A stretch of 64,000 nt of DNA from Planktothricoides raciborskii GIHE-MW2 (GTDB taxonomy: Bacteria > Cyanobacteriota > Cyanobacteriia > Cyanobacteriales > Laspinemataceae), in the NCBI RefSeq assembly GCF_040564635.1, contig NZ_CP159837.1, forward strand, positions 7,117,001 to 7,181,000, in the 5' to 3' direction. Below are positions 176 to 2,244 of this stretch, piece by piece. The translations under genes were made by a program, and so were the position numbers. The number at the start of each line of letters is the position of its first letter. Within the stretch, counting starts at the first letter, position 1. The notes beneath the pieces were generated by a model, which did not search any database, was not told the DNA's origin, and saw only the letters and a program-made list of their open reading frames with translations.

Positions 176-1421
176 GTGAAACATTTACTCTTGTCGAGTC
201 AAATGCAGTTAGTTGAGAAGCATATAATTAACCGACAGCATAAATTTTGGCAGGAATGCGACTATTTAGCATGGCAATCCAAAAATCTTTATAACTCGGC
301 TAATTATGTCCAGCGTCAATACTTCTTTGAAACTAGAAAGTATTACAACTCGATTGATATTTACCACCAGACGAATAACAAAGATAGCTTATCGATACCT
401 ACCAACGAAGGTTAGTAAACAGATTGTCCGTCGAGTTGCTGAAACTTAGAAAGCTTGGTGCAGAGCGTTAAAAGATTGGTCTGGGCATCCTGAAAAATAT
501 TTAGGTAAGCCGAAAATCCCAGGATACAAGCATAAAGAACGTGGTAGAAATGTGGTGATTTATCCCAAGGATGCGATCTCCTCTCCACTGCTATCTCGAG
601 GCATTGTCAAGCTATCTCAGACTAATATTGAGTTGACCACTGAGGCTAATAATATAAACCAAGTACGAATTGTTCCTAAACTTGACCACTATGTAATTGA
701 GATTGTTTACACGGTTAGCGAGCCAGATAAATTTGATGGTAAATATCTAGCTGGTGTAGACCTGGGTTTAAACAATTTGGTGGCTATAACATCCAATCAT
801 CCCGGTATTAGACCGCTGTTGATTAATGGTAGACCATTGAAAATTATTAACCAATTCTTCAATAAAAGAGTAGCAAAAGCACAATCAATCAAGGCTTGTC
901 GGCTGGTAAAACAGCTAAACAGCAAGCGAGATAGAAGGATTGACAACTACCTTCATACTGTGAGTCGGCGTGTTATTGATTGGTGTCAGTTAAATGAGAT
1001 TGGTCAATTAATCATCGGGAAAAATCAACGATGGAAACAAGCTCTCAATATTGGGAAAAAGAATAATCAAGAATTTACCAATATTCCTCATGCCAAACTG
1101 ATTAAATTATTGACCTCACAATTAGCAGGGATTTCTGTAGTTTTAACTGAAGAAAGCTACACTTCTAAAGCGAGCGCTTTAAATGGCGATTATTTGCCGA
1201 ATATCCAGGTTAAAACAGAAGCAAAAGTTGTGTTTAATGGTAAGCGTGTTAAACGTGGTTTATACTTGACTTCCACTGGTAGAATCATCAACGCTGATAT
1301 CAATGGAAGCATGAATATAGCTAGAAAAGTAATTCCCGATGCTTTTGAGGGAATAGAGGGATTGCCGTTTATTCCTGTAGTTTTAGACCTTTGGACTAAA
1401 ATTACAAACGTAGCTGTCTAA
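176..1421 (+). pseudogene. tnpB: decayed TnpB (IS200/IS605-family OrfB) RNA-guided nuclease gene
   Basis: TnpB is the RuvC-type RNA-guided nuclease of IS200/IS605 elements. The N-terminal part runs in one frame from the GTG at 176 to about 415. Homologous sequence then continues in another frame (YLPTKVSKQIVRRVAET from about 396), meets a TAG at 447-449, and resumes (KAWCRALKDW…HPEKYLGKPKIPGYKHK) into the open stretch 552-1421. One frameshift and one nonsense codon therefore separate the N-terminus from the catalytic part. All three RuvC acidic positions are visible: D in AGVDLGLNN, E in LTEESYTSK and D in INADINGSMN. The CxxC zinc-finger pairs of many TnpBs are absent, as in a common cyanobacterial subgroup (from memory). 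No tnpA transposase lies nearby. Downstream is a terminator-like hairpin at 1507. It is probably inactive, unless the 552-1421 part is made on its own. Confidence 0.85.
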
Positions 1422-1584: not shown

Positions 1585-1809
1585 TGAAATCTATTCACCA
1601 TTCCGTAGGGGCGAACGCCCGTTCTCCCCTACACAAAGAAACAACAATTAACAAGTAAGCAATAAGCAATAATAAATAGCAAACAGACAATCAAAAACCA
1701 CCAATCAAACCTGTGGACAGTTGATAAACTGACCGAAAAAAATAATTTTATCCTGAAACTGCGCTGAGTTTCCGAATTCTGAAATATAGTTTAAAAGGAA
1801 ATATTAACT

Positions 1810-2244
1810 ATGCGCAGCATCTACGGTTTTATTCTATTGTCTGGTTTATTATTGACTGGCGTTGGTAACGCGGCATTTCGTACTTTTGACTCTGGGTCTT
1901 TTGACCAAGTTGGCTCTGATATTCCATTGAATATTCTCTCGGAAAATGATGGAAATTTTTGCAAAAGAGGTGCAGATCAAAGGGACGGTTGCTTAGAGAT
2001 GAAATCTCAAGTATTACTGTCATTGAATCAGTCTAAACTTGTTGTGGACAAATTTGTAAATCGTATGCCTAGAGGGAGCGGACGCATTGACACGATGGAT
2101 TCCGATCAGAATAATCGTCGGATGTCAATCAAAGACGAAGCCAGGGGCAGCGGGCGTCGTGATATCACTAATTCTGAGAAAGATCCCGATAGCGTCCAAA
2201 GCACTTCTCAAGAACATCGGGGGAGTGGACGATTAGAAGCATAA
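1810..2244 (+). CDS. patX: PatX-like secreted protein with three RGSGR pentapeptides
   Basis: The 144-residue product has an N-terminal hydrophobic signal segment (about residues 4-20, ending GVGNAA), so it is probably exported or membrane-inserted. The pentapeptide RGSGR occurs three times, at residues 88-92, 112-116 and 137-141, spaced 24-25 residues apart and preceded by P, A and H. The last copy is almost at the C-terminus (HRGSGRLEA). RGSGR is the HetR-binding signal of PatS and HetN. PatX is the known family of signal-peptide proteins carrying this motif near the C-terminus in filamentous cyanobacteria, including strains without heterocysts. The start is supported by AAAAGGAAA upstream of the ATG. 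hetR itself is not in this window. Three copies are unusual, because PatX is generally described with one terminal motif (from memory). A tandem duplication of a 24-25-residue unit is the simplest origin. Confidence 0.82.
   Translation: MRSIYGFILLSGLLLTGVGNAAFRTFDSGSFDQVGSDIPLNILSENDGNFCKRGADQRDGCLEMKSQVLLSLNQSKLVVDKFVNRMPRGSGRIDTMDSDQNNRRMSIKDEARGSGRRDITNSEKDPDSVQSTSQEHRGSGRLEA

Follow-up and report, generated by a model that had tools for sequence, protein, structure and literature searches.

Why would a cyanobacterial protein carry the HetR-acting pentapeptide RGSGR three times, and could one such chain yield several signal peptides? The question is raised by a 64,000-nucleotide stretch of the Planktothricoides raciborskii GIHE-MW2 genome (the window; G000:C1:7117001-7181000), a genome assembled as one contig of 7,215,835 bases. 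On the plus strand of the window, positions 1810..2244 hold an ATG-initiated patX-type open reading frame (P0001) for a protein of 144 residues. Its translation reads RGSGR at residues 88-92 (2071..2085), 112-116 (2143..2157) and 137-141 (2218..2232), the last copy being followed by LEA and the stop codon. A sequence-only reading of this DNA had described three evenly spaced motifs behind a signal peptide, and we confirm this arrangement, with start-to-start spacings of 24 and 25 residues and a signal judged by eye. The N-terminus (MRSIYGFILLSGLLLTGVGNAAF) has the appearance of a Sec-type signal peptide, probably spanning residues 1-22 (1810..1875) up to a putative cleavage point, and shares the pattern MRxYxSILLSxLLL with single-copy PatX-like proteins (alignment A2). 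An AlphaFold model built on a three-row alignment predicts a single helix, residues 4-23, and no confident structure beyond it; its mean pLDDT of 47 makes the model too uncertain for a fold search.

A chance origin of the triple motif is rejected: of 200,000 shuffled versions of the protein, 349 contain a single RGSGR and none contains more, each of the three copies has its own nucleotide spelling, and the sister species keeps all of them. An open reading frame artefact or an assembly error is likewise rejected, since the window gene agrees with another assembly from this species (G099, Planktothricoides sp. SR001, with an identical PatX) and with the sister species (G001, the MAG Oscillatoriales cyanobacterium S07.Bin090), whose PatX is 74% identical and retains all three motifs. 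HetN is a large enzyme-like, short-chain dehydrogenase-like protein with an internal RGSGR; we rejected this identity because the window protein matches no Pfam or NCBIfam family. PatS, a very short peptide with RGSGR at its end, was rejected in view of the length of 144 residues, the signal-like N-terminus and the LEA that follows the last RGSGR. The PatX identity suggested earlier is instead supported by an RG(S/T)GR motif, a hydrophobic N-terminus (export itself is predicted), HetR in the genome and a DIF1-like upstream element. Apart from that element, which is a variant, the assignment as a PatX-type precursor is well supported. The founding PatX paper is that of Elhai and Khudyakov, 2018.

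The earlier reading had proposed looking for hetR elsewhere in the genome. A single hetR is present, about 3 Mb from patX, and its product is identical to Anabaena HetR at 236 of 299 residues. PatS6 is described as contacting E253, E254, D256, D270 and D278, and R223 lies near the peptide C-terminus (PMC4649674); all six residues are kept here. No RGSGR open reading frame was found in the 19.4 kb that surround this hetR (L084), so that the patX-hetR linkage is absent. No second PatX was found in the genome with the A2 profile to E 5 or with the second G001 paralogue as query, although such an empty result is weak evidence. At the cut used, nifH was not found either, which fits the earlier suggestion of a filament without heterocysts.

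We note that the surroundings of patX are not the same in the two species. In the region at window 552-1421 and upstream (L275, L139), a tnpB-like transposon gene separates an M20-type amidohydrolase gene from patX in the window genome (names by eye). In G001 patX has the M20-type gene as its immediate upstream neighbour, and the region preceding patX is nonetheless conserved between the two. G001 additionally carries a second PatX-like gene (L261, contig C32) with a changed motif, RGLGR, and one RGTGR, for which no counterpart was found in the window's genome.

Comparison of orthologous genes reveals that the motifs and the rest of the protein evolve differently. Within the 15 motif codons, G000 and G001 are separated by 5 synonymous and 0 non-synonymous changes; the corresponding counts are 20 and 36 over the 104 codons that belong neither to a motif nor to the signal (Fisher p 0.009). 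The first 25 codons contain 1 non-synonymous change. In 11 disjoint ortholog pairs, which we chose from 22, the synonymous and non-synonymous counts are 63 and 2 in the motif against 141 and 218 elsewhere (p 2e-20), and the full 22 pairs, which overlap, give 138 and 3 against 275 and 512. Diverged arrays (G000/G001, G399/G675, G523/G658) retain every motif despite change in the spacers. By this comparative evidence, the RGSGR copies are maintained by selection. Imperfect, probably decayed units do occur: RSSDR in G002 (the MAG Oscillatoriaceae cyanobacterium M33_DOE_052), FGNGR in G043 and G083 and FGNGQ in G116 (all three in group f32), TRTGR and LGSGR in G157, PGSGR in G176 and HRGSDR in G025. 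Gain as well as loss of motif copies therefore seems to occur. A genome lacking hetR and decay of the extra copies in relatives had been named as the outcomes that would speak against the sequence-only reading; hetR is present, and decay is not seen in G001 and is suggested in G002, f32 and G025. That interpretation is supported in part, through the PatX identity, the presence of hetR and the intact copies of G001, and weakened by the imperfect units elsewhere.

The tandem form extends well beyond the window. Profile searches covered 388 genomes of the order (55 matched, E 1) and 388 of the class (70 matched, E 0.1), two draws that overlap; together with hetR neighbourhoods, they gave 142 PatX-like open reading frames from 129 genomes, a set biased in that profiles A1 and A2 include multi-copy members. 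The set comprises frames of up to 420 codons with a hydrophobic N-terminus by rule, some of them with doubtful rule-set start codons (e.g. G116, G013); G000 and G099 belong to one species, and single-copy paralogues found later in G001, G002, G003, G004 and genus g5 stand outside it. Within this biased set, 83 frames carry a single motif and 59, from eight family groups, carry 2 to 17, where the earlier reading knew of one case. The family of the window species (f1) includes a 201-residue protein with 11 RGSGR in G002 and a 338-residue protein with 17 in G004. Tandem PatX occurs in 5 of 6 genomes of f1, 5 of 6 of f5, 2 of 13 of f14, 1 of 7 of f20, 3 of 4 of f28, 5 of 7 of f32, all 37 of f45 and 1 of 7 of f48; none was found in f2 (21 genomes), f9 (4), f11 (2), f33 (7), f56 (4) or four one-genome groups.

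The spacers between motifs look unrelated across groups (SEDARGSGRVENTPDA, KSDFQSFDDGRGSGRI, KNPDDDDSRGSGRFTTNQNLN, QTKERGSGRLDG, AQADRGSGRITN). On a HetR tree built by a quick method from 102 genomes, at least 10 changes are needed between single and tandem states, a count that is blind to gain versus loss; support is below 80 for 38 of its 97 inner branches, 35 PatX-bearing genomes have no usable HetR row, and each genome is scored by its highest copy number, so that paralogues are mixed. Repeated origin of tandem PatX is the simplest reading. The comparison of genomes indicates that PatX recurs in a tandem variant under selection, widespread outside the window case. Copy number shows no clear link to nitrogen fixation, since nifH was found in 20 of the 59 genomes with tandem copies and in 10 of the 21 further genomes searched.

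DIF1, TCCGGA close upstream of the gene, is used as a criterion for PatX. The exact hexamer is absent from the 120 nt upstream of the window patX; TCCTGA, which differs by one letter, lies 59 nt before the start codon (1751..1756), and G001 has the same element at the same position. A second conserved block, TCCGAA at -39 (1771..1776), is also kept in G001 and has a presumptive role, and AAGGA (1795..1799) is a possible ribosome-binding site by eye; all three are on the plus strand. TCC[GT]GA at -56 to -70 precedes 98 of the 142 PatX-like frames, namely 50 of 59 tandem ones (mean 0.4 in dinucleotide shuffles) and 48 of 83 single-copy ones (mean 0.6), while exact TCCGGA stands at the expected place in 20 of 142 by manual count. 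Many of the misses in f2 appear, by eye, to reflect doubtful start codons or an ACCGGA variant. Among tandem genes, two of the five in f1 (G002, G004) and the one in f20 lack TCC[GT]GA at that position.

Inverted repeats also lie about 10 to 40 bases before patX-like start codons (TCCGTATCAGG...CCTGACACGGA; TTGTATTAGAG...CTCTAATACGG; GTCTGAATCAGG...CTTGATTCAGAT), for example at L110 (G025), L057 (G133), L158 (G512), L171 (G420) and L100 (G129). In several groups both arms carry matching changes, and the repeats may represent an operator or an mRNA hairpin. A leader stem matched by at most 1 in 30 shuffles is found in 52 of 142 patX-like leaders, with varying sequences, and in none of the 7 f1 genes, the window gene included.

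The residue that follows each motif is the next distinguishing feature. No tandem protein ends in the motif (0 of 59, versus 27 of 83 single-copy proteins), and the +1 residue after tandem RGSGR is I, L, V or F in 207 of 233 copies (M was counted and none seen); the background for I, L, V, F or M is 486 of 2935 other residues of the tandem proteins, counted from the first RG onward. Because the copies of an array are not independent of one another, we give no p-value. The preference is seen in f1 (34/37), f14 (9/9), f28 (7/9), f32 (17/17), f45 (132/143) and f48 (3/3); it fails in f5 (5/10) and in f20 (0/5, all K). This hydrophobic position resembles a processing signature. PatS6 is described as bound by HetR at its free N-terminus, with Arg223 by the C-terminal carboxylate (PMC4649674), which would imply cuts on both sides of internal copies.

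Tandem genes often accompany hetR. In 39 of 59 cases hetR lies directly downstream of tandem PatX on the same strand, at a distance of about 117 to 634 bases (f45 34/37, f14 2/2, f28 2/3, f48 1/1). Overall, 77 of 142 PatX-like frames are beside hetR, a location that is frequent and not defining. In f32 and f20, hetR is adjoined by a single-copy PatX (G043, G065, G083, G116, G157, G112) and the tandem PatX lies elsewhere; the examined flanks of the f1 and f5 tandem frames yielded no hetR, and other f1 genomes carry further single-copy PatX paralogues. HetR was detected in 48 of 52 PatX-bearing genomes tested, with no match in G002, G149, G604 and G701. G002 has both an 11-copy (L003) and a single-copy (L265) PatX-like gene in an assembly that is 99% complete in about 320 contigs, and its missing HetR either reflects a hole in the assembly or means that PatX is genuinely used without HetR. 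At L209 (G182) and L210 (G013), hetR is preceded by two consecutive patX-like genes of one motif each, an arrangement of gene duplication instead of motif duplication. Many f45 genomes have an extra second, sometimes third HetR homologue elsewhere, at 40-51% identity (e.g. G570:C83, G444:C247, G610:C1).

Known systems provide a frame for these observations. PMC12756182 reports export of PatX and its processing by PatP, binding of HRGTGR to HetR with a Kd of 88 nM, and joint occurrence of patP, patX and hetR across filamentous orders; PatX is reported to restrain differentiation in PCC 7120 (PMC7761841). The 56-residue PatX of Anabaena/Nostoc PCC 7120 (HRGTGR) resembles the window protein, as far as these sources describe it, in its exported-type N-terminus, RG(S/T)GR and co-occurrence with HetR (PMC12756182, PMC7761841). 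Its promoter is described as DIF1-type (PMC7377430), in contrast to the variant element of the window gene, and the window protein differs further in having three RGSGR, preceded in turn by P, A and H, none of them C-terminal. PatS and HetN share the HetR-acting RGSGR with window PatX; PatS of PCC 7120 has 17 residues, and PMC12756182 places the synthesis and cleavage of both, as presumed, in the cytoplasm, unlike the signal-bearing type of protein predicted here. In the non-heterocystous Leptolyngbya BL0902, the available text places patX upstream of hetR and mentions a predicted DIF1 promoter (PMC11298460); most f45 tandem genes (34 of 37) are likewise directly before hetR, whereas the window patX is unlinked to it. 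The Arthrospira 'alternative PatS' of 90 residues is cited as a heterocyst inhibitor in PCC 7120, and the 'putative motif paralogy' invoked for such sequences, by way of explaining a one-motif setting, may hint at repeats (PMC5812504, in part). A weak search of the literature, on partial texts, found no report of several, tandem or repeated RGSGR or PatX copies, and prior mention is possible.

With a probability of roughly 0.6, the sequence evidence suggests that the window gene encodes a PatX-type precursor working as a small polyprotein that gives rise to several HetR-binding peptides. The precursor would be exported to the periplasm, where a peptidase (PatP or another) would cut around each RGSGR; several hexapeptides (xRGSGR) per precursor would then be taken up by cells and detach HetR from DNA, so that copy number would set the amount of inhibitor per translation event. 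In the window filament, in which no nifH was found, the signal would act on filament growth, breakage or some other trait under HetR control and not on heterocyst spacing. The release of several peptides with a raised dose, as the sequence-only reading had proposed, is plausible and now better supported through genome comparison. The distance between patX and hetR, the missing exact DIF1, the three tandem genes of f1 and f20 that lack TCC[GT]GA, the 11-copy G002 gene without a HetR match, the largely HetR-independent transcript effects described for Leptolyngbya BL0902, the decayed-looking units and the failure of the +1 preference in f5 and f20 count against this polyprotein reading.

The extra copies may alternatively be by-products of repeat slippage, with one copy (e.g. 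the last) doing the work and the rest adding nothing. Nearly identical, recent-looking arrays (17 copies in 3 nucleotide spellings in G004), copy numbers that vary between close genomes (5 and 4 in G176 and G215) and the imperfect units speak for such an origin; we consider it unlikely given the scarcity of non-synonymous changes in motif codons across the 22 overlapping pairs and the three pairs of arrays that keep all motifs while their spacers differ. A similarly low probability attaches to a true PatX that signals independently of HetR in non-heterocystous filaments. Leptolyngbya BL0902 transcriptomes, in which patX effects are described as 'basically independent of HetR' (PMC11298460, in excerpt), would agree with it, as would the two PatX-like genes of G002 and the unlinked hetR of the window's genome. 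However, HetR accompanies PatX in nearly all genomes tested, most tandem genes lie beside hetR, and the PatS6 contacts are intact in the window genome's HetR.

The protein might also remain uncut and act as a multivalent sponge or scaffold for HetR, given its several motifs per chain, the lack of a predicted fold and a HetR hood-domain dimer that is reported to take two peptides (PMC4649674, as available). We regard this as very improbable: window PatX has a signal-like N-terminus, HetR holds a free peptide amino group with Arg223 close to the C-terminal carboxylate, as cited above, and PatX without its signal showed no HetR binding in a two-hybrid test according to the accessible text of PMC12756182.

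For filamentous cyanobacteria as a whole, we see about an even chance that PatX repeatedly became polyproteins of 2-17 units with a shared processing signature, in which an aliphatic or aromatic residue comes after RGSGR, copy number acting as an evolvable dial for HetR inhibitor, in a bacterial counterpart of yeast and animal precursors. Yeast alpha-factor, animal neuropeptide and cyanobactin precursors hold several copies of their product peptides per processed chain. They are unrelated to tandem PatX in sequence, and the likeness is drawn from anatomy alone. Tandem copies would require cleavage just after RGSGR, towards the C-terminus; single-copy PatX with the motif at its very end does without this step, which the arrays make testable. 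Tandem PatX bears on the question of what PatX and HetR do in filaments free of heterocysts. The natural range of 1 to 17 copies, with conserved motif and free spacers, offers a genetic series for separating released peptide, HetR dose and other selected output. Since the RGSGR copies, three in the window protein and up to 17 in relatives, are kept by selection, these bacteria may draw a developmental signal from multi-copy precursors.
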